Shown here in pieces: positions 50 through 18,252 of a stretch of DNA of 33,134 bases. Below the pieces are notes generated by a model, which did no database searches, had not been told where the DNA came from, and saw nothing but the letters and a program-made list of their open reading frames with translations. Position numbers and translations under genes: made by a program. The number at the start of each line of letters is the position of its first letter. Within the stretch, counting starts at the first letter, position 1. This DNA is from an uncultured Merdimonas sp. (GTDB lineage: Bacteria > Bacillota > Clostridia > Lachnospirales > Lachnospiraceae), in contig CALWAV010000084.1 in the NCBI GenBank assembly GCA_944375745.1, positions 1 to 33,134 on the forward strand, given 5' to 3'.

Positions 50-107
50 ACTAAAAAAATTGAATATTTAAAAAATAATTGACAAAGAGGAAAGTGGTGT
101 TTATAAT
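50..107 (+). promoter_or_regulatory. Consensus sigma-A promoter of the peptide operon
   Basis: TTGACA at 79-84 and TATAAT at 102-107 are separated by exactly 17 bases, so both hexamers and the spacer match the consensus perfectly. Upstream, A-runs at 53-59 and 70-75 sit in an AT-rich stretch that resembles an UP element. Transcription would start near 113-115, giving a leader of about 100 nt before the start codon at 218. Bases 1-49 show nothing that I can assign. A fully consensus promoter on a 13-kb operon suggests that expression is limited by a repressor or by the leader rather than by promoter strength (inference). Confidence 0.9.
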
Positions 108-118
108 AGGCATAACGA

Positions 119-177
119 TTAAGGTGCAAAGGGGCAGATGAAACGTTCTGCCATTTTTTATACCTTTAGCACTTTAA
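119..177 (+). promoter_or_regulatory. Structured 5' leader, possible attenuator
   Basis: TTAAGGTGC (119-127) can pair with GCACTTTAA (169-177) with one G-U, and AAAGG (128-132) pairs with CCTTT (163-167). Inside lies a second hairpin, GGCAGA (133-138) with TCTGCC (147-152), followed directly by six T (154-159). The inner hairpin plus U-run looks like a short intrinsic terminator, while the outer stem encloses it. No known riboswitch class was recognised. It may tune operon expression or stabilise the mRNA. Confidence 0.5.
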
Positions 178-217
178 TAGGTGAAAGCGTCAAAAACAGT
201 GACAGGAGGAAAATGTT

Positions 218-1861
218 ATGAAGAAACTCATGAAACCATTGGCTCTGCTGATGGCCGCCCTGATGGTAACACTGACAGGCTGCGGGGGAAGCGGAGCTGA
301 GGACAACAGCAGCAGTGTGATTATCGGCCAGTCTTCTGAGGTGGCAAACTTAAATCCCATGATTCAGCCCCGTACACCGGACAGCAATGTACAATGTCTG
401 ATTTTTGATTATCTGGTAATCCCGGACGAGAACCTGAATTATGTGGGTGATCTGGCAGACAGCTGGGACATCTCAGATGACGGTACCGTCTATACCTTCC
501 ATCTGAAGGAAGGCGTTAAGTGGCATGATGGAGAAGACTTCAACGCAGACGATGTAATCTTTACTCTTACTTCTCTGGCATCCCCGGAATACACCGGAGG
601 AAACGAGGGACGCGTAATGTCTATCGTAGGTGCTCCCGAGTATCAGGCAGGCACTGCGGACAGCGTATCAGGTCTCAAGAAAATTGACGATTACACAGTG
701 GAAATCACCCTGTCCTCTCCCAATGCGGCATTCCTTTCCAATATGTATGTAGCGATGCTTCCGGAGCATATTCTGGCAGACGAGAGCCCGGCAGACTGGG
801 GCAATGATGATTTCAACCGCGCGCCCATCGGTACCGGAAAGTATAAATTCGTAGAGTGGGAGCCGGGCCAGTACATTTCTCTGGAACGCAATGATGACTA
901 TTTCGGAACCATGCCTTCTATTGAAAATGTGATAGTACAGTTTGGTGCGGACACGACTCTGGTAGCAGCTCTGCTGAACGGAGAGATTGATGTGCTGTAC
1001 AACCTGCCAGCCACAGAGATTGAGAATGTGGAGGCTGTAGATGGAGTAAGCGTATACAACTACGAGATGATGAGCGTTTATTACATCGGACTGAACATGC
1101 TGGATCCTGCCTTAAGCGACCTGAGAGTACGTCAGGCGCTGGCATACGCTCTGGACAAGCAGACCATCGTAGATACCGTATATGGAGACACAGCGACTGT
1201 GGCAAACGATGTTTTCCCGGACAACCACTGGTCTCACAACCCGGATGTGACGGTTTACGAGTACAATCCGGAAAAGGCTAAATCCCTTCTGGAGGAAGCC
1301 GGATATACCATGAACGACTCTACAGGATACTATGAGAAGGACGGCAGAACCCTTCATCTGACCTACGACATGAGCACCAGCACTGACGGACGGCAGGTAG
1401 CCGCTCTGATTCAGCAGTACTGGAAAGCCATCGGCGTGGAGATGGAAGTAATCGAGCAGGATTTCGCGACACTGGCTTACAGCAAGCTGCTTCCGAACAA
1501 CGCCACAGAGGAGACTACAGCAGATTCCTTCCAGTGCTATACACTGGGATTCGGCGTAGAGGCTGACCCGGAGGAGTACAACGCATACCTTTCTACTTCT
1601 ACCGGAGCAGGTTCCTGGAACTTTATCCATTACAGCAATCCTCAGGTAGACCAGCTCTTCCAGCAGCAGCTTCTTGAGACTGATCCGGAGGCAAGAGCAG
1701 ACTGCTTCCATCAGATCGCAGCGATTCTGGCAGAGGACGAGCCCTGGATCCCGCTGTACAACAAGGCGACCAGCGCAGGCTTAAGCGACAGGATCCAGAA
1801 CTTTACCGCGGATTTCCGTGGAATCAACTTCCAGATTGAGAAATGGACCCTTGCTGAGTAA
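218..1861 (+). CDS. Peptide ABC transporter substrate-binding lipoprotein (family 5)
   Basis: This is the extracellular receptor that captures peptides and hands them to the permeases encoded downstream. Residues 1-22 form a lipoprotein signal: two Lys, a hydrophobic core, then lipobox LTGC with Cys22 as the lipidation site. The mature part has the family 5 (SBP_bac_5) signature, including an early LADSW segment and VKWHDGEDFNADDV near residue 105. The length of 547 residues is typical of DppA/OppA proteins. The start is fixed by AGGAGG at 204-209, eight bases before ATG. It is the first gene of the operon, and a strong stem-loop follows it at 1884-1919, which may keep its mRNA more abundant than the rest. 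The exact ligand cannot be read from sequence. Neighbouring X-Pro-type peptidases suggest short, perhaps proline-containing, peptides (inference). Confidence 0.93.
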   Translation: MKKLMKPLALLMAALMVTLTGCGGSGAEDNSSSVIIGQSSEVANLNPMIQPRTPDSNVQCLIFDYLVIPDENLNYVGDLADSWDISDDGTVYTFHLKEGVKWHDGEDFNADDVIFTLTSLASPEYTGGNEGRVMSIVGAPEYQAGTADSVSGLKKIDDYTVEITLSSPNAAFLSNMYVAMLPEHILADESPADWGNDDFNRAPIGTGKYKFVEWEPGQYISLERNDDYFGTMPSIENVIVQFGADTTLVAALLNGEIDVLYNLPATEIENVEAVDGVSVYNYEMMSVYYIGLNMLDPALSDLRVRQALAYALDKQTIVDTVYGDTATVANDVFPDNHWSHNPDVTVYEYNPEKAKSLLEEAGYTMNDSTGYYEKDGRTLHLTYDMSTSTDGRQVAALIQQYWKAIGVEMEVIEQDFATLAYSKLLPNNATEETTADSFQCYTLGFGVEADPEEYNAYLSTSTGAGSWNFIHYSNPQVDQLFQQQLLETDPEARADCFHQIAAILAEDEPWIPLYNKATSAGLSDRIQNFTADFRGINFQIEKWTLAE

Positions 1862-1883
1862 AAACTGAAGAATTGAATTTTTT

Positions 1884-1919
1884 ACACAGGACCCGGGACG
1901 GCAGTCCAGGGTCCTGTGT
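1884..1919 (+). promoter_or_regulatory. Intercistronic stem-loop after the binding-protein gene
   Basis: An 11-bp perfect stem pairs 1884-1894 (ACACAGGACCC) with 1909-1919. It extends by four further pairs (1896-1899 with 1904-1907) after one G-A mismatch, closing on a four-base loop. No T-run follows, so it is not a standard terminator. Such hairpins after binding-protein genes are known to protect the upstream mRNA segment from 3' decay, giving excess binding protein over permease. The position 22 bases after the stop at 1861 fits that role. Confidence 0.65.
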
Positions 1920-1941
1920 GCTGAATGGAGAAGACGAAAGT

Positions 1942-3243
1942 ATGGAACTGGAACCGGTTGGCCTGTTGAAAAGGCTGATAAGAATCAATACGACAAATCC
2001 TCCCGGGAAGGAAAAGCAGCTTCTGGATGTCTTAAAGGAGATTCTGGAGCTGAATCATATCGAATGCGTCTTTCAGGAGACGGCGCCCGGCAGAGGAAAT
2101 CTGCTGGCCTGGCTCCCTGCGGACCCGGCTTTCCGGGCTGCGGAAGGAACGCGGACGCCGCTGATTCTGCTGAGCCATGTGGACGTGGTAGGAGCGCAGC
2201 CGGAGCAGTGGAAGTTCCCTCCTTTTGAGGCACAGGAGGAGGACGGCTATATCTATGGTAGAGGGTCTGTGGATACAAAGCAGCTGACCGTCATGGAGCT
2301 GGCCGCTTTTTTGAATCTTAAGGATTCCGGAATAAAAAGAAAACGGGACGTGTATTTTCTGGCCACCAGTGATGAGGAGAGCGGAAGCGCTCTGGGATTA
2401 TCCTGGTTTCTGGAGCATGAAATTACGCTGGGAGACAGAACCTTTTCAGGAACAGAGCTGTTCCGCGGAAGTGATGTGATAAGTGAGGGAGGCGGTTTCC
2501 CGATTCTTGCCGGAGGGCGGGAATATTATCTCTGCGAGTCCGGACAGAAAGGCTGCGGAACTGTGGAGTTTACTGTACTGGCCAGAAAAGCAAAAGGCGT
2601 GTTCTTTGGAAGCGGAGACGGCATGGAACGGGCCATGGGCCTGGTCCGGGACATCGGAAGGCGGACGCTTGCGGGACGGACACTGAATACGGTAAAGCTT
2701 TTTGAGAGCAGCCTTGCGGGGGCAGAGCTTTCCCCAATGATGAAGAAAATACTGACTGCCATGAAGAGAAACACCATGACAGTTACCATGATAGAAGGAA
2801 AAAACGTAAACCAAGTCCGGGTACTCTGTGATGTACGCCTTCTGCCAGGCTTTGGCAGAGAATATCTTGAGAAGGAGCTTCAGGAGCTTTCAGAAAAATG
2901 GGATTGCTCCTGGAATATTCTTTCCCTGAGCGAAGGCTATGAGAGCAGCCCGGAGAGCGGCTTCCTGGAGCTTCTGGAAAAAGCGGTTCTGGAGGTTCTG
3001 GGAAAGACGAAAGAGGAAGCGCAGATTCTTCCGTTTGTGTCCATGGGTTCCTCCGACGGTCATTTTCTGGCAGGAGTGGCAGCCGGGGTATATGGCTGCA
3101 GCCCGGTCTATGCCTGGGATATGACCTTTGATACGGCGGTGTCCATGGTGCACGGCGTAAATGAAAGGATACACAGAGATTCGGTGGTGTTTGGCTGCCG
3201 GGTACTGACATTGGCTGTGAGACGAGCGGCCGGAGAGGAGTGA
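1942..3243 (+). CDS. M20-family metallopeptidase, first copy, lid His missing
   Basis: This is a cytosolic zinc peptidase of the ArgE/DapE/CPG2 (M20) type, 433 residues. Metal-site residues are visible in order: His79-x-Asp81, bridging Asp111 in GRGSVDTK, catalytic Glu145 and ligand Glu146, Glu182 in SEGGG, and His404 near the C-terminus. The lid domain normally carries GGHAS, whose His completes the active site of the partner subunit. Here residues 217-224 read AKGVFFGS, so that His is absent, whereas the paralogue at 4464 keeps it. The frame is open back to 1873, but that upstream start would place the 1884-1919 hairpin inside the gene. ATG 1942 has GGAG at 1927-1930 and matches the paralogue's N-terminus. 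Substrate is unknown. It may be catalytically altered or work with the second copy. Confidence 0.85.
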   Translation: MELEPVGLLKRLIRINTTNPPGKEKQLLDVLKEILELNHIECVFQETAPGRGNLLAWLPADPAFRAAEGTRTPLILLSHVDVVGAQPEQWKFPPFEAQEEDGYIYGRGSVDTKQLTVMELAAFLNLKDSGIKRKRDVYFLATSDEESGSALGLSWFLEHEITLGDRTFSGTELFRGSDVISEGGGFPILAGGREYYLCESGQKGCGTVEFTVLARKAKGVFFGSGDGMERAMGLVRDIGRRTLAGRTLNTVKLFESSLAGAELSPMMKKILTAMKRNTMTVTMIEGKNVNQVRVLCDVRLLPGFGREYLEKELQELSEKWDCSWNILSLSEGYESSPESGFLELLEKAVLEVLGKTKEEAQILPFVSMGSSDGHFLAGVAAGVYGCSPVYAWDMTFDTAVSMVHGVNERIHRDSVVFGCRVLTLAVRRAAGEE

Positions 3244-3248
3244 CAAAA

Positions 3249-4460
3249 GTGATTAACAGAAATGACGTAGCAAGAGAAAAAATGCAGCGGGCGGCAGAGA
3301 TGCTGCAGGAGAACGGAATCGACATGTGGGTGTTCTACACGAGAATGAAAGTGGATACCGCGCTGGAGCTGATGTTCAACACAGATACTCAGAATGAGGT
3401 CCTCTTTCTGCTGACCAAGGGCGGGGACCGGATCGCGGTTGCCCTTCCGGAGGATGCCGCTGCCTATGAGAAGAGCGGCCTTTACACGAAGGTTATCACC
3501 ACGGACAGCGAGGGCTTTATGAAGGAATTTAAGAAGGCCTTCGATGAGTTTCAGGTTCAGAGCCTGGCTGTCAATGATTCCATGGATGACACCCGCTGTG
3601 ACGGACTGACTATGGGACTTTACAAGAAGCTGGAAAAAGCCATCGGACCGGAGGTTATGGCGAAGGTAAAGCGGTGCAGCTATTCCATGCTGGAGGAGCT
3701 GCGCGCGGTGAAGACTCCCAGCGAGATCGAGATTATGAAGGAATGCAGCCGGATTACGACGGATATTTATGATGCCCTGTTTAAGAGAATCCACGTGGGC
3801 TTAAGTGAGATTGATGTAGCCAAGATCATGATGGAGGAGTGCGAGAAGAGAAATGTGTGCACAGCCTTTGGCAATCCCCCCGAGTATCCGCTGGTTCTCA
3901 ATCCCAAGGGAGGCATGTCCCACAGAGGACCCAACGACAGCAATATCTGCGAGCCGGGCGACATGCTGGTCATTGACTTCAGCATCCGTTATAACGGCTA
4001 TACTTCTGATATTGCCCGTACCATGTATTTCCTGAAGCCCGGCGAGGAGCACGCGCCCCAGGACGCAGTAGACTGTGCCAACGCGGCTATCCGCGCGGTG
4101 GGAGCTGTGATGGAGAAAATCAAACCCGGCATGAAGGGCTATGAAGTGGATGAAATCGGACGTCAGTCTATCATTGACAGCGGTTTCCCGGCTTTTCCCC
4201 ATGCCACCGGCCATCAGGTGGGCCTGGAGGTTCACGATGGCGGAACAACCCTTGGACCGAAGACAGGAAGATACTCCTCCCACGGTGTGCTGCGTAAAAA
4301 TGAGATCTACGCTCTGGAGCCCACAGTTCTTCAGGACAGGGACAAACGCAGCGCCATCATCGAGGACGATGTGCTGCTGACAGATGACGGCTGCGTGCTG
4401 ATCAGCAAGCGTCAGACAGCGCTGATTGAGATCCCCTACCGGACAGGCGAGGAGAGCTGA
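3249..4460 (+). CDS. M24-family Xaa-Pro peptidase/creatinase-like hydrolase
   Basis: The protein has the two-part creatinase architecture: an N-terminal creatinase domain (about 1-140) and a C-terminal pita-bread metallopeptidase domain (about 150-400). All five metal ligands of M24 enzymes are present: Asp243, Asp254, His322, Glu357 and Glu372. Family members remove N-terminal residues before proline or cleave related amidino compounds, using two metal ions. GTG 3249 is chosen because GAGAGGAG at 3233-3240 lies eight bases upstream. A GTG at 3240 overlapping the previous stop is possible and would add three residues. It sits between two M20 genes in the transporter operon, so an intracellular peptidase role is likely. 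Creatinase itself cannot be excluded. Confidence 0.85.
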   Translation: MINRNDVAREKMQRAAEMLQENGIDMWVFYTRMKVDTALELMFNTDTQNEVLFLLTKGGDRIAVALPEDAAAYEKSGLYTKVITTDSEGFMKEFKKAFDEFQVQSLAVNDSMDDTRCDGLTMGLYKKLEKAIGPEVMAKVKRCSYSMLEELRAVKTPSEIEIMKECSRITTDIYDALFKRIHVGLSEIDVAKIMMEECEKRNVCTAFGNPPEYPLVLNPKGGMSHRGPNDSNICEPGDMLVIDFSIRYNGYTSDIARTMYFLKPGEEHAPQDAVDCANAAIRAVGAVMEKIKPGMKGYEVDEIGRQSIIDSGFPAFPHATGHQVGLEVHDGGTTLGPKTGRYSSHGVLRKNEIYALEPTVLQDRDKRSAIIEDDVLLTDDGCVLISKRQTALIEIPYRTGEES

Positions 4461-4463
4461 TGG

Positions 4464-5753
4464 ATGATGAATCTGACAGAGAGTAAAGAGGCGTTTATCC
4501 GGCTGATACAGATTCCTTCTGTCACCGGAAGCAGCCAGGAAGAAAAGGCCTGCGCTTTTCTGGAAGAGATTCTGAAGTGCAGCGGCATAGAGAGCAGGCG
4601 TATTGCAAAGATTCCTGAGCGTCCTAATCTTCTGGCCTGCATCCGGGCAGAAAAGCCGGAAAAGGAGCCGGTGGTCCTGATTTCCCATATCGATGTGGTG
4701 GATGGAGATCCGAAGCAGTGGAGCCATCCGGTCTTTGGAGGCGAGATTGCGGAAGGACGAATCTGGGGACGCGGCACACTGGATACCAAGCAGCTTACCA
4801 TGATGGAGCTTTACAGCTTCCTGCGCCTGAAAGAGCGGGAAAAGGACCTGAGCCGGGATGTGTGGTTTCTGGCCACAATCGATGAGGAGGGCGGAAGCAG
4901 CTTTGGCATGGAATATGTAAAAAGCGTATGCCCGGAGCTTTTTGGGAATGCGGTGGTCTTCAATGAAGGCGGCGGCTTTCCTCTCCATATTAACGGCAGA
5001 AATTATATGATGCTGACGGTGGGAGAAAAAGGAGTCTGCCGGGTCCGGGTCCGCGCAGAGGGCACGGGAGGCCATGCCAGCGCACCGGGAGATGACCAGG
5101 CTGTACAGAAGCTTGCAGAAGGCCTGCGGCGGATTTTCGCCGCGGAGCAGACGCTTGTCTGCGGAAGCCGCCATACCCAGGATACCATGAGAGAGATCGT
5201 CGGGAGCAGTGACTGGGACAACGCGGCAGGCGCCGATATCTTCGGCTATGCCGGCCAGAACAGCATCGGTATGAGAAATTACCGCATCGGCGAACGCAGC
5301 AATGTGATTCCCGCGGAGGCGGAGACGGTTCTGGAGTTTAAGCTTCTGCCCGGTTCCCGGGAAGAGGATGTGAAGGAATTCCTGGACCGGGAGCTGCAAA
5401 GCCTTCCGGTGCAGTATGAGATCTTAAGCTTTGAGCCGGGCTTTGAGAGCCATTTCGAAAATTCCCGCTTAAAAGATCTGGTCAAGGAACTGAACGAGGC
5501 CTGCGCCCGTTACGGCTTTGAGGGAGAGGTACTCCCTATGCTGGCTCTCGGACGCACGGACGGCCGTTTCTTTGGAAGCGAGGGCAGCTTTGTGTATGGC
5601 TGTTCCCCGCTGCTGATGGGAGATTCCTTCGACGTGGTGCTGCCGAAGGTTCATGGAAATGATGAGAGCATTCTGGAGGAGTCCTATCTGTTTGGCTGCC
5701 AGGTGCTTGATGAAATCCTGCAGAAAGACTGTCTGCGGGGAGAAGAAAAATAA
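4464..5753 (+). CDS. M20-family metallopeptidase, second copy, complete active site
   Basis: This second M20 enzyme of 429 residues keeps all expected catalytic positions: His75, Asp77, Asp107, Glu141/Glu142, Glu168, lid-domain His204 in GGHAS, and terminal His397. It shares distinctive stretches with the copy at 1942 (GRG-x-x-DTKQLT and EGGGFP), so the two arose by duplication and then diverged, mainly in the lid domain. GAGGAG at 4449-4454 supports ATG 4464; the adjacent ATG 4467 is an alternative. The start lies three bases after the M24 gene's stop, so translation is probably coupled. The family includes dipeptidases, aminoacylases and deacylases acting on N-acyl or peptide bonds. The operon favours dipeptidase activity (inference). 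Confidence 0.9.
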   Translation: MMNLTESKEAFIRLIQIPSVTGSSQEEKACAFLEEILKCSGIESRRIAKIPERPNLLACIRAEKPEKEPVVLISHIDVVDGDPKQWSHPVFGGEIAEGRIWGRGTLDTKQLTMMELYSFLRLKEREKDLSRDVWFLATIDEEGGSSFGMEYVKSVCPELFGNAVVFNEGGGFPLHINGRNYMMLTVGEKGVCRVRVRAEGTGGHASAPGDDQAVQKLAEGLRRIFAAEQTLVCGSRHTQDTMREIVGSSDWDNAAGADIFGYAGQNSIGMRNYRIGERSNVIPAEAETVLEFKLLPGSREEDVKEFLDRELQSLPVQYEILSFEPGFESHFENSRLKDLVKELNEACARYGFEGEVLPMLALGRTDGRFFGSEGSFVYGCSPLLMGDSFDVVLPKVHGNDESILEESYLFGCQVLDEILQKDCLRGEEK

Positions 5754-5764
5754 GGAGGAGCGAC

Positions 5765-6223
5765 ATGAAGGATTATAGTTATCATAAAAAAGTAATCGAG
5801 GATGTGACGGAAAAGCTCAGGGAGCTGGATATTGATCTGTATCTGATTATCACAGCGGAAGGATGCGATCCCATGACATCCTTTATTCCGGGTGTGGACA
5901 CGGTAGGATCCAGCGCGTTTATGTTTGCGAAGGATGGAAGACGGCTTGCCATCGCTTCCAGCATTGATGCCCAGGATGTGGAAGAGTCCGGCCTTTTCGA
6001 TCAGGTGATCCGCTATGACACCTATGACGATACGCTGGCAGAGACTGTAATCAGCCTTCAGCCGAAGAAGATCGCGCTGGATTATTCGGAGGATGTGCCT
6101 TTCTGTGACGGACTGACGATGGGCAAATATGAGAAGTTTGTGAAATTTATGGGAGATTATTCCTTTGAGATCTGCAGCGCGGATCTGTTTATTCCGGAAG
6201 TACAGCGCATGAACGCAAGATAG
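5765..6223 (+). CDS. Stand-alone creatinase N-terminal domain protein
   Basis: The 152-residue product resembles only the N-terminal domain of creatinase/M24 peptidases. It shares the CDGLTMG-x-Y motif with the first ~140 residues of the M24 enzyme at 3249 and has the same domain-sized layout. The pita-bread catalytic domain is absent; the protein stops at the domain boundary, just where the linker would begin. AAGGAGGAG precedes ATG 5765. The stop TAG (6221-6223) is built into the ribosome-binding site of the permease gene, so this is a properly integrated cistron, and no catalytic-domain remnant follows. In M24 enzymes this domain helps form dimers and shapes the substrate pocket. A partner or regulatory role for the neighbouring M24 enzymes is inferred, not shown. 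Confidence 0.75.
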   Translation: MKDYSYHKKVIEDVTEKLRELDIDLYLIITAEGCDPMTSFIPGVDTVGSSAFMFAKDGRRLAIASSIDAQDVEESGLFDQVIRYDTYDDTLAETVISLQPKKIALDYSEDVPFCDGLTMGKYEKFVKFMGDYSFEICSADLFIPEVQRMNAR

Positions 6224-6233
6224 GAGAGTCAAT

Positions 6234-7193
6234 ATGGGAAAATACATTAGAAAACGTCTGCTTCAGGTCATCCCTGTGGTATTCGGAATTACAATCCTGA
6301 CCTTTTTCATTATGCAGCTTGCCCCCGGAGGTCCTTTGACCGGCATGCTGAGCCCCCGTTCTTCACCGGAGGCTCTTCAGAGAGCCAGAGAGGCGCTGGG
6401 GCTGGATAAACCCATTCTTGTGCAGTATTGGAACTGGCTGAAGGAACTGGTGCAGGGCAACTTCGGCTACAGCACCTACAATGGACAGCCGGTTCTGGAG
6501 CAGATTCTGGAGCGTCTGCCGGCGACTCTGCTTCTTACAATTACCGCTTTTGTAATCAGCTTTGTGGTGGGAATTCCTCTGGGTGTGTATTCCGCTACGC
6601 ATAAGTATTCCAAGGGGGATTACGGCCTTACCGTATTCTCTTTTATCGGTATTTCAATTCCCAGCTTCTTTTTCGGCATGGGACTCATCTATATCTTTGC
6701 CCTGAAGCTGAACTGGCTGCCCACCTCGGGCTTTGGTTCCGCCACCTTCCGGGGAACGGGAATGGCGCTTGTGCTTCACAAGCTGAGATATCTGATTATG
6801 CCGGCGATTGTTATGTCCCTGAGCAATCTGGCCACCGTTATGCGGTTTGCCCGATCCAGTATGATTGAGACACTGAATCAGGATTATATCAGGACTGCCC
6901 GGGCCAAGGGACTTTCCGAGAAGGTGGTCATCTACCGCCATGCGCTGAAAAATTCCATGATTCCGGTTATCACGATTTTCGGACAGTCCATTCCGAACCT
7001 GTTTGGAGGCGCTTACATTACGGAAAAGGTGTTTGGCTGGCCGGGCATGGGCCTTCTGGGCGTGGACGCCATCACCAACCGTGATTATCAGATCCTGATG
7101 GGACTTACGCTGTTTACAGCGATTCTGGTAATGCTGGGAAATCTGCTGGCAGACATTATGTACTCGATTGTAGATCCCAGAATCCGTTATTAA
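6234..7193 (+). CDS. dppB: Peptide ABC transporter permease, DppB/OppB type
   Basis: This is an inner-membrane permease subunit of 319 residues. It opens with the typical short cytosolic start and first helix (residues ~8-28, ending LAPGGP), followed by about five more hydrophobic segments. The EAA loop that contacts the ATPases is visible as RTARAKGLSEKVV, before the final helices. It forms the translocation channel with the product of the next gene. AGGAGAG at 6222-6228 overlaps the preceding stop codon and sets ATG 6234. Twelve bases separate it from the DppC-type gene. It could equally be called OppB; family assignment is firm but ligand class is not. Confidence 0.93.
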   Translation: MGKYIRKRLLQVIPVVFGITILTFFIMQLAPGGPLTGMLSPRSSPEALQRAREALGLDKPILVQYWNWLKELVQGNFGYSTYNGQPVLEQILERLPATLLLTITAFVISFVVGIPLGVYSATHKYSKGDYGLTVFSFIGISIPSFFFGMGLIYIFALKLNWLPTSGFGSATFRGTGMALVLHKLRYLIMPAIVMSLSNLATVMRFARSSMIETLNQDYIRTARAKGLSEKVVIYRHALKNSMIPVITIFGQSIPNLFGGAYITEKVFGWPGMGLLGVDAITNRDYQILMGLTLFTAILVMLGNLLADIMYSIVDPRIRY

Positions 7194-7205
7194 AGGAGCA
7201 GCAGC

Positions 7206-8105
7206 ATGGAAAGAAAGAAAACAAAATGGAAACAGAGACAAAATCTCTTTAAAACGGACGCCTGGAAGCGATTCCGCAAAAATAAGCTGGCTCTTGTGGG
7301 AACCGTAGTGATCCTGATTCTGATCCTGGCCGCGGTTTTGGCGCCGCTTCTGGCTCAGAATGATCCCTATGTGAGCCTGAAGGGGAGTAATGGTCTGGTT
7401 ATGACAGACATGTCTCCCAGTGAGAGCGGCACGATTTTGGGCACAGACAGTCTGGGCCGTGACGAATTCAGCCGCCTTGTCTACGCGGCAAGAGTCTCCA
7501 TGAGCGTGGGACTGGTGGCAGTGGGTATTTCCACAGTGGTAGGTATTGTGCTGGGAGCGATTTCAGGATACTTCGGCGGAGCCGCGGATATGATCATCAT
7601 GCGCTGCGTGGATGTCATCAACTGCTTCCCGGTCATGTTCCTGATTATCATTATCGCGGCAATTTTGAACCCGAGTATTTATAACGTTATGATAGTCATC
7701 GGTCTGTGCAACTGGACCGGTACGGCCCGTCTGGTCCGGGGCGAAATCCTGCGGGTGCGTGAGATGGAATATGTACAGGCAGCCGTCTCTTTGGGAGCGA
7801 CGGATTTCCGGATTATCTTTTCCCATATTATTCCGAACGTCATGGCTCCGATTATCGTAGAAGCTACCATGCAGATGGCCCGGGCTATCCTGACAGAGGC
7901 TTCCTTGAGCTACCTGGGCTGCGGCGTTCAGCTTCCCACCGCAAGCTGGGGAAATATGCTGAATGAAGCAAATAACCTGGCGACCCTGACTTCCCGTCCC
8001 TGGCAGTGGATCCCGGCAGGCGCCTGCATTTTCCTGGCGGTACTGAGCATCAACTTTATCGGCGACGGACTTCGTGACGCTTTCGACGCAAAGCAGAAGA
8101 AATAG
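7206..8105 (+). CDS. dppC: Peptide ABC transporter permease, DppC/OppC type
   Basis: This is the second channel subunit, 299 residues. An N-terminal cytosolic segment with many Lys/Arg leads into the first helix at about 31-52 (ALVGTVVILILILAAV). A periplasm-side region ending GTDSLGRDEFSRL, diagnostic of OppC/DppC proteins, follows, then the remaining helices. The EAA loop reads EYVQAAVSLGATDFRII. AAAGGAG at 7192-7198 sits eight bases before ATG 7206 and overlaps the previous stop. The stop is ten bases before the start of the second M24 peptidase gene, so channel and peptidases are made from one message. Confidence 0.93.
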   Translation: MERKKTKWKQRQNLFKTDAWKRFRKNKLALVGTVVILILILAAVLAPLLAQNDPYVSLKGSNGLVMTDMSPSESGTILGTDSLGRDEFSRLVYAARVSMSVGLVAVGISTVVGIVLGAISGYFGGAADMIIMRCVDVINCFPVMFLIIIIAAILNPSIYNVMIVIGLCNWTGTARLVRGEILRVREMEYVQAAVSLGATDFRIIFSHIIPNVMAPIIVEATMQMARAILTEASLSYLGCGVQLPTASWGNMLNEANNLATLTSRPWQWIPAGACIFLAVLSINFIGDGLRDAFDAKQKK

Positions 8106-8115
8106 GGAGGAAACT

Positions 8116-9198
8116 ATGGACAGAAGCAGGACTTATGAAAAACGGCTGGCGGGTGTGCGCAGCTATATGAAAGAGCATGATCTGGATGGAGCAATGTTCA
8201 CCTCCTATGAAAACCGCCGTTATTACTGCGGATTTACCGGCAGCAACGGTTACCTGATCATTACCGAAGACAAGGCGGCTATGGTGACGGACAAACGGTA
8301 TACGACCCAGGCTCAGCAGCAGACTTCGGACGTGGAGATCATTGAACATGCGGCAAACCACCTGGATCTGGTGGCGGAGACCATCAGACGTATGGGAATC
8401 ACCCGGATGGTGATGGAGGCCTGTATGACAGTGGACGAATATTTCCCGCTGAAGGAAAGACTTCCGAAGGTACAGGTATGCTTTGAGCAGGAATATTTTC
8501 TGGAGCAGAGAATGGTAAAGGACGAGGAAGAGATCGCCTGTACCAGAGCGGCCATTGCGGCGGCTGAGGCAGGATTTGACAAGCTGCTTCCCAGGCTTCA
8601 GATTGGTATGACAGAGAAGGACCTGGCGGACGAGCTCCACTATCTGGTTTCCAAGGAGGGAGCAGAGGCCATGAGCTTCGGCACCATTGTGGGAAGCGGG
8701 GCAAGAGGCGCTCTGGCCCATGCGTTCCCGACAGAAAAGAAGATTGAAAACGGAGACATGGTGGTCGTGGATTTCGGCGTGATGAAGGACGGCTACTGCT
8801 CCGATATGACCCGTACTCTGTTGTTCGGTGATGTGACGCCGGAGCATATGCGGATTTTCAATCTGGTGCAGGAATCCCAGGACAAGGCGATTGCGGCTAT
8901 CCGTCCGGGAGTGCTGGCAAAAGAGGTGGAAGATGCCCACAGGGCAGTTTATTTAAGGGAAGGCCTGGATGACTATGCTCTCCGGGGACTGGGACACGGA
9001 ATCGGTCTTCAGATTCACGAATGTCCGCGGATCGTCATCGGAAATGAGACGGTGCTGCGCCCGGGCATGATTTTCACGGTAGAGCCCGGACTTTATTTCC
9101 CCGATGACTGCGGTGTACGCACGGAGGATGACGTGCTGGTGACAGAAGACGGCGTTGAAAATCTGTCCCATACTCCTCATGAGATAGATATCGGTTAG
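8116..9198 (+). CDS. M24-family Xaa-Pro aminopeptidase
   Basis: A cytosolic metallopeptidase of 360 residues that probably releases N-terminal residues preceding proline. The N-terminal creatinase domain spans about 1-125 and the pita-bread domain about 135-355. All five metal ligands are present: Asp219, Asp230, His294, Glu323 and Glu337, in the contexts VVDFG, CSDMTRT, GLGHGIG, TVEPG and RTEDDV. The frame is open from 8074, but GGGAGG at 8105-8110 fits ATG 8116, and the upstream part would overlap the permease gene with no family similarity. It is shorter and more PepP/PapA-like than the M24 enzyme at 3249, so the two probably differ in substrate. Its placement between permease and ATPase genes ties it to the imported peptides. 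Confidence 0.9.
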   Translation: MDRSRTYEKRLAGVRSYMKEHDLDGAMFTSYENRRYYCGFTGSNGYLIITEDKAAMVTDKRYTTQAQQQTSDVEIIEHAANHLDLVAETIRRMGITRMVMEACMTVDEYFPLKERLPKVQVCFEQEYFLEQRMVKDEEEIACTRAAIAAAEAGFDKLLPRLQIGMTEKDLADELHYLVSKEGAEAMSFGTIVGSGARGALAHAFPTEKKIENGDMVVVDFGVMKDGYCSDMTRTLLFGDVTPEHMRIFNLVQESQDKAIAAIRPGVLAKEVEDAHRAVYLREGLDDYALRGLGHGIGLQIHECPRIVIGNETVLRPGMIFTVEPGLYFPDDCGVRTEDDVLVTEDGVENLSHTPHEIDIG

Positions 9199-9209
9199 GA
9201 GGACAGACC

Positions 9210-10175
9210 ATGAGCTTATTGGAAGTAAAAGATTTAAAGACTTATTTTTATACAGATGCCGGCGTGGCAAAATCCGTGGATGGCGTAACCTTTTCCGTAG
9301 ACCGGGGCAAGGTGCTGGGAATCGTGGGCGAGTCAGGCTGCGGAAAAAGCGTAACCAGCCTTTCCATTATGAGGCTGGTGGATCCGGCTACGGGAAGATA
9401 CGAAGGAGGAAGCATTCTGTTTGACGGGCAGGATATCCTGAAGCTGCCGGAGAAGGAAATGCAGAAGCTCCGGGGCAATAAAATCTCCATGATTTTTCAG
9501 GAGCCCATGACTTCCCTGAATCCGGTATTTACCATCGGTTATCAGATCGAGGAATCCCTGATGCTTCACAAGGAGATGGACAAAAAGGCTGCCCGGGCCA
9601 GAGCCATCGAGCTGCTGGAACTGGTAGGAATTCCTGAGGCAGGCAAGCGGGTGGATGAGTATCCCCATCAGCTTTCCGGCGGCATGCGCCAGAGAGTCAT
9701 GATTGCCATGGCCCTGGCCGGCGATCCGGAGCTTCTGATCGCGGATGAGCCGACGACAGCGCTGGATGTGACGATTCAGGCCCAGATTCTGGATCTGCTG
9801 AAGGAGCTTCAGGAAAAGCTTAACATGTCTATCATCTTTATCACCCATGACCTGGGTGTAATCTCCGAGATGGCAGATGAAGTGGCCGTAATGTACGCGG
9901 GAGAGATCGTGGAAAAGGCCAGTACGCGGGAGCTGTTCGAGGATCCGAAGCATCCCTATACAGTGGGTCTGATGGATTCCATCCCGGATATCAACGAAGA
10001 GGTGGACCGGCTGAAGACGCTGGAAGGCCTGGTTCCCAGTCTTTATGATATGCCGAAGGGATGCCATTTCGCGCCCCGTTGCAAATACGCCTGCCCGGAA
10101 TGTGAGAAGGAGCATATCAAGCTTACCAATCTGGAAGGCGGAAGACAGGTCAGATGCAGGAGGTATGAAAAATGA
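9210..10175 (+). CDS. dppD: Peptide ABC transporter ATPase, DppD/OppD type
   Basis: This is the first of two cytosolic ATPase subunits, 321 residues. Walker A is GESGCGKS with Lys46, the ABC signature is LSGGMRQRV, and Walker B is LLIADEPT. The C-terminal oligopeptide-transporter extension holds Cys residues in the pattern C-x5-6-C-x3-C-x2-C ([14 protein letters not shown]), with one more Cys near the end. In some DppD proteins this cluster binds an iron-sulfur centre, which is possible here. The ribosome-binding site TAGGAGG (9196-9202) uses the previous gene's stop codon. The stop overlaps the next ATG in ATGA (10172-10175), indicating coupled translation of the ATPase pair. Confidence 0.94.
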
Positions 10176-14852: not shown

Positions 14853-15560
14853 ATGAGAGCAGCTATCTGCGATGACCAGCCACAGGCACTGGAAGAACTG
14901 AAGAATCTGCTTCTGCGGATTCCGGCTGTAAAGAAAGTACATGCCTACTCAGATATGGAGAATTTCTGGGCAGCGCTGCAGGCAGGAACCTGTTACGATG
15001 TGGTATTTATGGATATCGACTGGAGACAGGAAGAGACAGGGATCGATTTTGCCGAAAAGCTTTATAAATTAAGTCCCTATACAAAACTGATATATGTGAC
15101 TGCGTATACTCTGGACTATGTGGAGGACGCCCTTTTAAGCCATGTAAATCTCAGCGGTTTTCTGAAAAAACCGGTCAGTCTGGAGCAGCTGGAACGAAAT
15201 GTGGAAAAAGTCTGGGAAGAACAGTCCGTATCCAAGGGAAAGGTGCTGATTTATTATCAGGGCAGCCATATGGCAGTACCCTTTCGGGATATTTTCTATC
15301 TGGAAAGCAGGCTCCATAAAACGAGCATCATCCTGAAAAATCTGGAGTATGTCTGCAGCGAAAAGCTGGAAAGCCTGAGAGAACGGCTGGATGACCGGTT
15401 TCTGAAATGCCATAAAAGCTACCTGGTGAATATGCAGTACATCAGGGAATTCCGGGGGCGGGAAATTGTGCTGGAAGACGGCCGGACCGTACCAGTCAGC
15501 AAGGCCAGGGCTAAAGAAGCGAAGGAAAGGTTTTGTGATTACATCTCAAACTGGATGTAG
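14853..15560 (+). CDS. LytTR-family response regulator (AgrA/VirR-like)
   Basis: A DNA-binding response regulator of 235 residues. The receiver domain (about 1-118) has the acidic pair Asp7/Asp8, phospho-acceptor Asp54 in VVFMDID, and the conserved Lys in GFLKKPV. The LytTR DNA-binding domain (about 130-232) is marked by IFYLESRLHKTSI and FLKCHKSYLVNMQYI. Regulators of this type pair with AgrC-like HPK10 kinases, and two such kinase fragments are encoded immediately downstream. AAAGGAGA at 14833-14840 precedes ATG 14853 at somewhat long spacing. No AgrD-like peptide or AgrB processing gene is visible in the window. Confidence 0.9.
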   Translation: MRAAICDDQPQALEELKNLLLRIPAVKKVHAYSDMENFWAALQAGTCYDVVFMDIDWRQEETGIDFAEKLYKLSPYTKLIYVTAYTLDYVEDALLSHVNLSGFLKKPVSLEQLERNVEKVWEEQSVSKGKVLIYYQGSHMAVPFRDIFYLESRLHKTSIILKNLEYVCSEKLESLRERLDDRFLKCHKSYLVNMQYIREFRGREIVLEDGRTVPVSKARAKEAKERFCDYISNWM

Positions 15561-15642: not shown

Positions 15643-16500
15643 ATGTATGTGATGATTTTGAATATTCTTGCATATGGCCATGACGCTCTGATGGGAATGC
15701 TGTATTACTCCAGAACGCTGGGCCGGCGTTATTCTCTGAAAACCACGGCGTTTGCGGCCGCAGGCTGGTGGGCGGTGCAGAGCGCATGCAAGCTGCCTGC
15801 CATGTATCTGGCGGACGACTATAATATGACAATGATTATGGCAGGCCAGAGTGTGCTGATGATAGTCTATCTTCTCATCTTTTACGGCTCCTCCCCGGCC
15901 AGAAAGCTGCTGTCTTTTATGCTGATGGCCGCTTCCCTGGGAATGGCTGAGTTCACTTCCATTCTTATTGCCGCAAATATTTTTGAGATTGGAGACCGTC
16001 CTCTTCAGTTCGGGTCGGAGTTTACCGTGGCAGGACTGCTGATCATGCGGCCCCTTGCGACGCTGGCTTATTATATTGCTTTTCAGATCTGGAATGTGCT
16101 GCAGCGTTCCTCCTGGGTCCGCGGAAGCCGCCAGTGGCTGTGCGTGATCCTGCCGCTCAGCCAGGTATTTCTTCTGTGGTATCTGACAGAAGCCTATACA
16201 GATGCCCTGGAAATACTTCCGGCGCCTGTCCTTGGAGGCGTCTTTCTGGCCGCCGCTGCTGATATTTATATGTTTGTAGTGTTTGACCGGGCACAGGAAC
16301 GTGAAAATATGGAAAATGAGCTGCGTCTGAAAAAGCACCTGTTTCAGCTGGAGCAAATCCGCTATGAAAAGCTCCGCAGCTCTCTGGAGGAGACGGCCCG
16401 TCTGCGGCATGATTACCAGAATTATCTTCTGGCGCTCCGGGGAATGCCGGCAGCGGAGCCGGAAACGGAGACCGGAGGGAAGGGCGGAGAGTGCGTATGA
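15643..16500 (+). CDS. AgrC-like sensor with H-box but no ATPase domain (split kinase, part A)
   Basis: A 285-residue membrane protein with about seven hydrophobic segments (roughly 1-20, 30-50, 63-84, 88-116, 128-152, 162-184, 194-216), then a coiled stretch to residue 250. It ends with an HPK10-type H-box, RLRHDYQNYLLAL, whose His256 is the expected phospho-acceptor. Only 29 residues follow, so the second DHp helix and the whole GHKL ATPase domain are missing. A near-perfect ribosome-binding site AGGAGGTGA (15625-15633) sets ATG 15643. The stop overlaps the next gene's start in ATGA (16497-16500). The partner gene carries the ATPase domain with Ser in place of the His, so the two look complementary (see findings). 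The ligand is unknown. Confidence 0.82.
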   Translation: MYVMILNILAYGHDALMGMLYYSRTLGRRYSLKTTAFAAAGWWAVQSACKLPAMYLADDYNMTMIMAGQSVLMIVYLLIFYGSSPARKLLSFMLMAASLGMAEFTSILIAANIFEIGDRPLQFGSEFTVAGLLIMRPLATLAYYIAFQIWNVLQRSSWVRGSRQWLCVILPLSQVFLLWYLTEAYTDALEILPAPVLGGVFLAAAADIYMFVVFDRAQERENMENELRLKKHLFQLEQIRYEKLRSSLEETARLRHDYQNYLLALRGMPAAEPETETGGKGGECV

Positions 16501-17300
16501 AGAAGGAAAATCTGCTGTTCCTTGTGATTCCGGCCAGCCAGTTTCTGATGCTTTTTGGCAATCTGACAGAGAAACGGGAGCTGGATTTCTGGGGTTACGG
16601 AGGAATTATATTGAGCGCTGCGGCGGATCTCCTCCTGTTTCACATCCTGCTCTGGGGCTCCAGGCGGGAAAAGCTGCAACGAGAGCTTCAGGAGATTTCC
16701 TACCTTCAGGAGACAGAGCGGGCGCAGAATGAAATGCTGGAGAAAAAACAGGAAGAGCTTCTGAGTATGCGTTCTGATTTTGAGAAGCGCCTGGGGCAGA
16801 TCCGGGAGAAGCTGAAACAGGGAGAAGAAGCAGCAGCCCAAAGAGAGATGGATGCCCTGCAGCAAAGCCTTGATGGGACCAGGCCTGCAGTTTACTGCCA
16901 GAACACGATTGTAAACGCAGTTTTGAGCGAAAAAGAAAAGAAATTCCACAGCCTGGCCATCAAGACAGAAATTCAGCTTCTGATTCCCCGCGGACTGAAG
17001 CTGGATCCGCTCCACCTGTGCAGCCTGTTTTCCAATCTGCTTGACAACGCGCTGGAGGCGCTGGCAGAACTGCCGGAAGAGGAAAGAAAGCTGGAATTGA
17101 AGGCGGAGATGAAAGGGATGTATCTCTTTGTCAAAAGCCGGAACAGGGCTGCCGGAAGCCATGCCTTAAGGAAACGCCGGAAAGGCAGGGGATACGGCAT
17201 CCAGATCCTTCAGGAACTGGCGGAGAATTATGAAGGGACGTATCAGGCAGACTACGAGAAAGGCTGGTATACGGCCGCGGTAATGGTGAAGGCGGGATAA
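16497..17300 (+). CDS. GHKL ATPase partner kinase lacking the phospho-acceptor His (split kinase, part B)
   Basis: A 267-residue protein with two membrane helices (about 5-23 and 33-53), a coiled coil (about 56-90), a DHp-like region and a full AgrC-type ATPase domain (about 130-265). The ATPase shows NTIVNAVLSEK, N-box SNLLDNALEA (residues 179-188) and glycine loop GRGYG (230-234). At the H-box, MRSDFEKRL aligns with LRHDYQNYL of part A, with Ser93 at the His position, so self-phosphorylation at this site is not possible. GGAG at 16486-16489 supports ATG 16497; a GTG at 16491 would add two residues. The ATGA overlap implies coupled translation with part A. It could phosphorylate part A in trans, or be a degenerate kinase or modulator. 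Confidence 0.82.
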   Translation: MKKENLLFLVIPASQFLMLFGNLTEKRELDFWGYGGIILSAAADLLLFHILLWGSRREKLQRELQEISYLQETERAQNEMLEKKQEELLSMRSDFEKRLGQIREKLKQGEEAAAQREMDALQQSLDGTRPAVYCQNTIVNAVLSEKEKKFHSLAIKTEIQLLIPRGLKLDPLHLCSLFSNLLDNALEALAELPEEERKLELKAEMKGMYLFVKSRNRAAGSHALRKRRKGRGYGIQILQELAENYEGTYQADYEKGWYTAAVMVKAG

Positions 17301-17409: not shown

Positions 17410-18252
17410 ATGGGGCGTCCCAGCCGATGCAGAAGAATCTGCTCAGAACCGGCCTACGACCGCTTTGTTCCGGAAGGGATTCCCTGTGAGGACAGGGTGA
17501 TTCTGACGGTGGATGAGTATGAAGTAATCCGCCTGATCGATCTGGAAAAACTGACCCATGAACAGTGTGCCAGACAGATGGATATTTCCAGAACGACTGT
17601 GACGGAGATTTACGAGTCAGCCCGTGAAAAGACAGCGGACTGTATCGTAAACGGGAAACCGCTTCTGATAGCGGGCGGGAATTACCGCCTCTGCGATGGT
17701 TCGGCTGTCCGCTACTGCCGGAAAATATGCCGAAGAATGTGCGCGGGATCCGGAAAAGGAGAAACAGCCGGAGGTACAGACTCCGGATTTTCTCAGACGG
17801 TCCCGGCGAAAGGAGAGAATGAAATGAGAGTAGCAGTAACCTATGAAAACGGAGAGGTATACCAGCATTTTGGCCATACGGAGCAGTTCAAGCTCTATGA
17901 CGTGGAAGACGGGAAGATCACAAAGGAACAGGTCGTGGACACGAATGGCAGCGGACACGGTGCTCTGGCTGGCTTTCTGAAGGATATGCAGGTGGATACG
18001 CTGATCTGCGGCGGCATCGGCGCGGGAGCCCAGGATGCTCTGGCGGAAGCGGGTATCCGGCTTTACGGCGGTGTATCTGGAAACGCAGACGAGGCTGTAA
18101 AGGCTCTGGCAGCGGGAACTCTTTCTTATAATCCCAATGTTCAGTGCGGCCACCATGGAAATCATGAGCATGGGGAAGGACACAGCTGCGGACACGGCCA
18201 TGAACATGGCCATGGAGAGCATGAATGCCGCCACGGGGATTGTGGACGTTAG
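17410..18252 (+). CDS. DUF134-NifX fusion protein with His/Cys-rich tail
   Basis: The 280-residue protein joins two families. Residues 1-100 match DUF134: GRPSRCRR at the start, then VDEYEVIRLIDLEKLTHEQCA and a helix-turn-helix-like MDISRTTVTEIYESAREK, implying DNA binding. Residues ~139-240 match the NifX/dinitrogenase iron-molybdenum cofactor-binding fold (RVAVTYENGEVYQHFGH; LICGGIGAGAQDALAEAGI). The last 35 residues hold 11 His and 4 Cys, a probable metal-binding tail. GGAGGTGAT (17398-17406) supports ATG 17410. A second strong ribosome-binding site, AAAGGAGA (17809-17815), precedes in-frame ATG 17824 (Met139) exactly at the domain boundary, so the NifX part may also be made alone. A metal- or Fe-S-responsive regulator is a reasonable inference; the target is unknown. 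Confidence 0.82.
   Translation: MGRPSRCRRICSEPAYDRFVPEGIPCEDRVILTVDEYEVIRLIDLEKLTHEQCARQMDISRTTVTEIYESAREKTADCIVNGKPLLIAGGNYRLCDGSAVRYCRKICRRMCAGSGKGETAGGTDSGFSQTVPAKGENEMRVAVTYENGEVYQHFGHTEQFKLYDVEDGKITKEQVVDTNGSGHGALAGFLKDMQVDTLICGGIGAGAQDALAEAGIRLYGGVSGNADEAVKALAAGTLSYNPNVQCGHHGNHEHGEGHSCGHGHEHGHGEHECRHGDCGR

Follow-up and report, generated by a model that had tools for sequence, protein, structure and literature searches.

The usual picture of a histidine kinase is a homodimer whose phospho-acceptor His and ATPase domain lie in one chain. AgrC of Staphylococcus aureus has its sensor, His, and ATPase in a single chain and works with AgrB and AgrD; its partner, AgrA, is a LytTR regulator. 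The classic split kinase is CheA3/CheA4. For these Rhodobacter sphaeroides proteins, the accessible part of PMC3591291 states that neither autophosphorylates alone, it counts 1556 of 42417 HisKA proteins without an ATPase domain, and it argues that kinase splits can yield ultrasensitive or bistable responses if the free His protein is a phosphatase. Hik36-Hik43 of Synechocystis is a split histidine kinase reported to act with one regulator, Rre6 (PMC7656254, partial text). By analogy, the nearest tested precedent for the locus described here is FasB/FasC/FasA of group A Streptococcus. According to the sections of PMC12675982 at hand, H246 of FasC is required, FasC works without its ATPase domain, plasmid-borne FasB works without its membrane part, the FasB ATPase suffices, and two-hybrid assays gave FasB/FasC heterodimers and no homodimers; the authors concede that a His of FasB might be phosphorylated. 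Split kinases of the CheA type and the functional division in FasBC with a ComE-like regulator are thus already known. The open-licence literature searched yielded no account of naturally truncated AgrC-type (HPK10) pairs or sensor arrays, and the accessible portions of PMC6593409 and PMC8895600 contain nothing on either. Nor did that literature yield a report of an AgrC-like pair reduced physically in this way, of the recurrence of such a pair with many substitutes for the His, or of the arrays.

Anatomy of the locus

The stretch of DNA that was analyzed (33,134 nucleotides, termed the window) is from an uncultured Merdimonas sp. genome of 162 contigs that is 83% complete. It contains a regulator gene followed by genes for two proteins, termed A and B, with the following features.

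14853..15560, + strand: LytTR response regulator, 235 aa (Pfam LytTR, E 1.8e-22; Response_reg, E 8.2e-13)
within 14853..15560, + strand: receiver Asp54 of the regulator, MDID motif, read from the sequence
15643..16500, + strand: protein A, 285 aa, multi-pass membrane protein with an H-box, no ATPase domain, and probably no second DHp helix
16408..16410, + strand: His256 codon of A, predicted phospho-acceptor, in the H-box LRHDYQNYL
16485..16489, + strand: candidate ribosome-binding site of B, CGGAG, within the 3' end of A, read from the sequence
16497..16500, + strand: ATGA overlap of the A stop (16498-16500) and the B start (16497-16499)
16497..17300, + strand: protein B, 267 aa from the ATG at 16497, with two membrane helices, coiled coil, pseudo-H-box, DHp hairpin, and GHKL ATPase
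16773..16775, + strand: Ser93 codon of B, aligned at the phospho-acceptor His position
17034..17051, + strand: intact N-box of B (NLLDNA), whose N, D, and N do not vary in two alignments
17184..17198, + strand: G2 box of B, GRGYG, intact

The original prediction, made from the letters of the window, held that A has a normal H-box with His256, ends 29 residues later, and has no ATPase domain; that B has a GHKL ATPase domain with Ser93 at the aligned His position; and that the two genes overlap in ATGA behind a LytTR regulator. The open reading frame coordinates and the Pfam domains agree with this description. No ATPase domain was found in A by Pfam at E values up to 10, the sole match being a sub-threshold, unrelated DUF, and NCBIfam returned nothing; annotation keyed on the ATPase domain therefore misses such His subunits. 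In B, HATPase_c_5 matched residues 171-264 (E 3e-14), and a GHKL ATPase of this type occurs in B only. The His256 column of A was His in 17 of 17 aligned rows, and in a second alignment, also of 17 rows, it was the sole invariant column. At the Ser93 column of B, 112 distinct ATPase-bearing frames from the loci examined had 90 His and 22 non-His entries (three of these being gapped fragments), and a profile of B proteins aligned this column with the His of the RHDY motif of AgrC (6e52). Neither chain thus combines an H-box His with an ATPase, A having the His and no ATPase and B the ATPase and a Ser. Membrane segments of A numbered five by a crude hydropathy count and seven as helices of a low-confidence model, and B has two. 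By reading, GGAG lies 7 nt upstream of the ATG of B, and translational coupling of A and B through the ATGA overlap is likely.

As in the Fas system, two sensor-kinase-like genes stand together with a LytTR/ComE-like regulator gene, and the working truncations FasC 1-286 and FasB 216-448 resemble A and B, respectively. In contrast to A and B, both FasB and FasC retain membrane, DHp, and ATPase domains (PMC12675982, partial text); a FasBC-type pair in which both proteins keep DHp and ATPase is not what we observed, since A is without the ATPase. FasB also retains two candidate His residues, H241 and H284, whereas in A and B the domains have been physically lost and the spare His replaced. The Fas gene order is fasB-fasC-fasA, and the part of PMC12675982 available describes no sensor arrays. 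The pair resembles CheA3/CheA4 in placing His and ATPase on separate proteins, and a free CheA-type His protein can be a phosphatase, but CheA3 and CheA4 are chemotaxis kinases (P1, P3, P4, P5) of a cytoplasmic cluster (PMC3591291, partial text), whereas A and B are of the membrane AgrC type; Hik36-Hik43, a split CheA/PilL homologue (PMC7656254, partial text), differs from them as well. Pfam detected no CheA domains (Hpt/P1, P5) in either protein at E values up to 10. For AgrC (PDB 6e52/6e95, 4bxi), a profile of B-type DHp-ATPase regions matched 6e52 with an E of 1.6e-06, and the window's regulator had a weak AgrA match. A search for the AgrB maturase gave no PF04647 match in this one genome (83% complete). 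Downstream of B, positions 17410-18252 of the window hold one frame with DUF134 and Nitro_FeMo-Co (NifX-like) domains and a His-rich tail; by eye, a frame with a similar start adjoins B in five of the seven loci of the genus described below (G000, G001, G009, G010, G011).

Conservation, homology, and structure models

Sixteen genomes of the genus were searched with A, and eight matched; one of these (G003) had only a weak match, to ordinary His kinases. The A-B pair was present in the other seven (G000, G001, G008, G009, G010, G011, and G015), which include the named strain Lachnoclostridium sp. An138 and a Merdimonas metagenome-assembled genome, while the nine genomes without it include assemblies that are 83-85% complete. 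Its presence in seven of 16 genomes indicates that the arrangement is more than chance. Identities to the window's proteins were 57-92% for A and 58-90% for B. In all seven loci the regulator, A, and B lie on the same strand in the same order, with a 4-base A-B overlap when the ATG of B that aligns across relatives is used. Every A has the His, and every B has the N-box and the G2 box with Ser in place of the His in six and Ala in one (G015); relatives with an ATPase in A or a His in B, which would have spoken against the original prediction, were sought and none occurred among these seven. In G011, two consecutive A genes lie upstream of B, and the product of the second shares 45% identity with A of the window. 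Compared with its nearest relative, G010, the window gave Nei-Gojobori dN/dS values of 0.112 for the regulator, 0.113 for A, and 0.108 for B, so all three genes are under purifying selection, which argues against decay of the strain.

Residues 7-103 of B aligned with residues 166-266 of A at 30% identity over 102 columns (E 2e-08). Its six gap positions, in two stretches, precede the last membrane helix, and from that helix up to and including the H-box the alignment is gapless. From this homology, the two membrane helices, coiled coil, and pseudo-H-box of B correspond to the last two helices, coiled coil, and H-box of A. We reject a frameshift of one ancestral kinase, already considered unlikely in the original prediction, and an assembly error, because the pair occurs in seven genomes and B has membrane helices and a pseudo-H-box of its own. 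The alignment fits duplication of a whole kinase with reciprocal loss rather than one gene having been cut, and we infer a tandem duplication after which the ATPase was lost in one copy and the sensor and His in the other.

AlphaFold2 models, built from four sequences for A and three for B, were of low confidence (pLDDT 57.9 and 58.1, respectively) and too poor for reading contacts. The model of A had seven helices, the last spanning residues 194-266 with nothing regular beyond; that of B had a long helix over residues 31-107, another over 111-127, and the alpha/beta ATPase part. Together with the tails of eight A proteins of the genus, the model suggests that A of this genus probably has no second DHp helix, a feature that the original prediction did not contain. 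If so, the bundle in this genus cannot be the standard one of two hairpins, and, should the model of A hold, the second DHp helices have to come from B. The tails of A proteins in most other lineages look, on our reading, long and regular enough for a second helix. In Foldseek searches with the model of B, DesK and AgrC were the top matches (6e95 and 6e52 close) with low TM-scores, matches that weigh little given the poor model.

Split pairs in other genera

Two wider samples were examined, one of 397 genomes of the family, searched with A, a profile of A, and a profile of B, and one of 341 genomes of the class, searched with the profile of A, after which loci were read. Because the searches considered the best 6 to 12 candidates per genome among the best-listed matches, and the loci read were those with short frames or high scores, the prevalence figures are lower bounds. 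The split was found in at least 12 of the 397 family genomes (at least 11 of 334 genera) and in at least three of the 341 class genomes (the window's own, G482, and G680). The same division thus recurs, beyond what the original prediction had covered, in at least 12 genera besides that of the window, arranged as follows (residue at the His position of B in parentheses).

G280: regulator, B (Gln), A, A
G423: regulator, B (Ala), A, A
G276 (L070), 3614-9386: LytTR regulator, A, A, A, A, B (Arg, full sensor), the A genes encoding four tandem ATPase-less His proteins
G325: regulator, B (Asp), A, the C-terminus of B appearing frame-shifted
G271 (L114), 101-3951, minus strand: regulator, small A, B (Gln), B (Gln)
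G181 (L113): regulator, small A, B (Gln)
G142: regulator, A, B (Gln), A
G214: regulator, B (Asn), A
G273: A, B (Asn), regulator
G150: regulator, A, B (Leu), here too with a 4-base overlap
G482: regulator, B (Arg), A
G680: A, regulator, B (Asp), the regulator reading as two frames

Across the 13 genera, 26 ATPase-less His proteins adjoin 20 His-less ATPase proteins, in which Ser, Ala, Gln, Arg, Asp, Asn, or Leu replaces the His; the A proteins were recognized partly by their His, and the B proteins were not picked by this residue. In the 26 A proteins, the chain stops 24 to 47 residues past the His. All 20 B proteins have the N-box, and 18 have the GxG of the G2 box, which is missing from G423 and G325. 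There can be many sensors per ATPase, with two A genes per B in G011, G280, G423, and G142 and four in G276. The division is reversed in G271, where a 148-aa His protein with two membrane helices accompanies two full sensor-ATPase proteins with Gln. The G680 and G325 systems, with the two-frame regulator and the shifted end of B, may be broken or misassembled. In G181, the kinase at 3339-4631 of L113 (minus strand), located behind the LytTR regulator and the small His protein, is an apparent fusion, possibly a chimera, in which Flagellin_N (E 7.4e-42) replaces the sensor and is followed by the Gln pseudo-H-box and the GHKL ATPase.

A one-chain fusion of A and B was found in G142 (L115, 4770-6539), where a 589-aa protein encoded behind a LytTR regulator contains membrane helices and an IRHDFNNQL H-box, then another two hydrophobic helices, a Glu pseudo-H-box, and an ATPase domain. 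The separate A-B-A system of the same genome is on another contig. Such a fusion is a classical hint that the separate A and B proteins act together.

The 200 loci examined contained 119 distinct ATPase-bearing proteins, of which 94 had the His, 22 did not, and three were gapped fragments; the B of G150 lies outside this count, probably owing to an E-value cut. An ATPase-less His protein was encoded within 3 kb on the same strand for 19 of the 22 His-less ATPase proteins versus one of the 94 with His, a contrast whose Fisher p is no fair probability, as the loci were non-random, seven of the 19 were from one genus, and A was recognized by its His. Six systems found by profiles built without them, three from B with A then found adjoining (G142, G214, G273) and three from A with a His-less B then found (G482, G680, G150), are somewhat cleaner evidence, their loci still having been picked by short frames or high scores. 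The three His-less exceptions were the G142 fusion, the kinase of G675 beside a contig end, and G579 (L183, 4172-5242), where Asn takes the place of the His (FRNDYKNHM) and the locus contains no ATPase-less His protein. The lone His-bearing case was G368 (L105, 4463-6661), in which a complete His kinase is followed by an ATPase-less His protein; this arrangement is perhaps an intermediate toward the split.

A batch of 17 class loci included ATPase-less His proteins without a His-less B in G647, G513, and G534. G647 (L168) has two A-like proteins beside a regulator split between frames, and the 30 kb examined there contain no ATPase gene; G421 (L106) has a lone A-like protein with no partner in the 30 kb examined. 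In G513 (L170, 3682-4976), a 312-aa frame with the His and DHp region is followed by a 116-aa ATPase-only frame; it looks like a broken or fissioned kinase cut between DHp and ATPase and was left uncounted, as was G428 (L167), which looks like one kinase in two frames. Also outside the split count are G534 (L177), cut by a contig end, G675 (L173), where a kinase with Arg lies beside a His kinase cut by a contig end, and G647, G421, G368, and G579.

In a quick tree of ATPase domains (112 rows), the 19 His-less rows, which include the G142 fusion and the G675 kinase, required nine changes between His and non-His labels, and a single clade of these rows was rejected (AU test, p 0.00043). The deeper forks were weakly supported and several rows were long; in an initial tree of 114 rows, only one (His) or two (non-His) changes were forced by the starred branches taken alone. 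These sequence comparisons favor more than one origin of the His-less ATPase proteins.

A probable two-subunit kinase and the alternatives

We consider it likely, in support of the original prediction, that the two proteins make up an obligate complex, with B phosphorylating the His of A in trans; phosphorylated A would then pass the phosphate to the regulator. The three genes would encode a two-subunit AgrC-like kinase with its regulator. A would sense the signal by its membrane domain and bear the sole phospho-acceptor His, and B would be anchored beside A through its two membrane helices and the in-register coiled coil, bind ATP, and phosphorylate His256 of A, from which the phosphate would move to Asp54 of the LytTR regulator. 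Either protein alone would be nonfunctional, with Ser93 blocking signaling by a B homodimer. The strongest outside support for this reading is the FasB/FasC precedent, which falls short of full proof of a strict trans flow because phosphorylation of FasB is possible and its two candidate His residues are kept. Within our data, it is supported by the recurrent complementary losses, the nearby ATPase-less His proteins of most His-less ATPase proteins, the intact B motifs, the G142 fusion, the purifying selection, the A-B homology, and the retained gene order and overlap; the partnerless A-like proteins of G421 and G647, the His-less kinase without an A in G579, the apparent lack of a second DHp helix in A of this genus, the poor structure models, and the possibly broken G680 and G325 systems speak against it.

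Twelve loci of the window's genome match the ATPase family, so a kinase from one of the 11 besides B could phosphorylate A. On this basis, A might be mainly a receptor-controlled phosphatase or phosphate sink for the regulator, with B a tuning accessory and net phosphorylation coming from other kinases. The HDxxN motif kept in the H-box of A, which the accessible part of PMC3591291 ties to phosphatase activity, is consistent with such a role; within the preferred reading, the motif would allow ultrasensitive or bistable responses with free A as the phosphatase. We nevertheless regard this scheme as unlikely, since a mere tuner would not need the ATPase motifs that B retains intact in a gene under purifying selection, and both the G142 fusion and the Fas system point to a kinase. 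That the pair acts exactly as a one-chain kinase, divided by neutral gene fission without functional consequence, appears quite improbable: the one-chain fusion of G142 and the plain DHp/ATPase fission that G513 resembles are compatible with it, but the pair is no cut kinase, as B brings membrane helices of its own and an altered H-box, and the five loci with two to four A genes per B could not be imitated by one chain. An artefact of sequencing, assembly, or strain decay, to which the fragmented assembly of the window's genome might lend some color, is hardly credible in view of the same structure in seven genomes, the named strain An138 among them, and the dN/dS of about 0.11 in the closest pair.

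With the obligate A-B complex as the preferred reading, this naturally split membrane AgrC-type kinase makes trans-phosphorylation and heteromer formation testable by mixing two proteins. That the split recurs with different substitutes for the His suggests that selection has favored obligate heteromers more than once, and sensor arrays would let a single regulator receive additional inputs. More tentatively, and at somewhat less than even chances, Clostridia may have repeatedly made AgrC-type kinases modular, with one His-less ATPase subunit common to several receptors and one regulator integrating their signals through competition among the receptors, and, in the reversed arrangement of G271, with two sensor-ATPase proteins sharing one small His protein.
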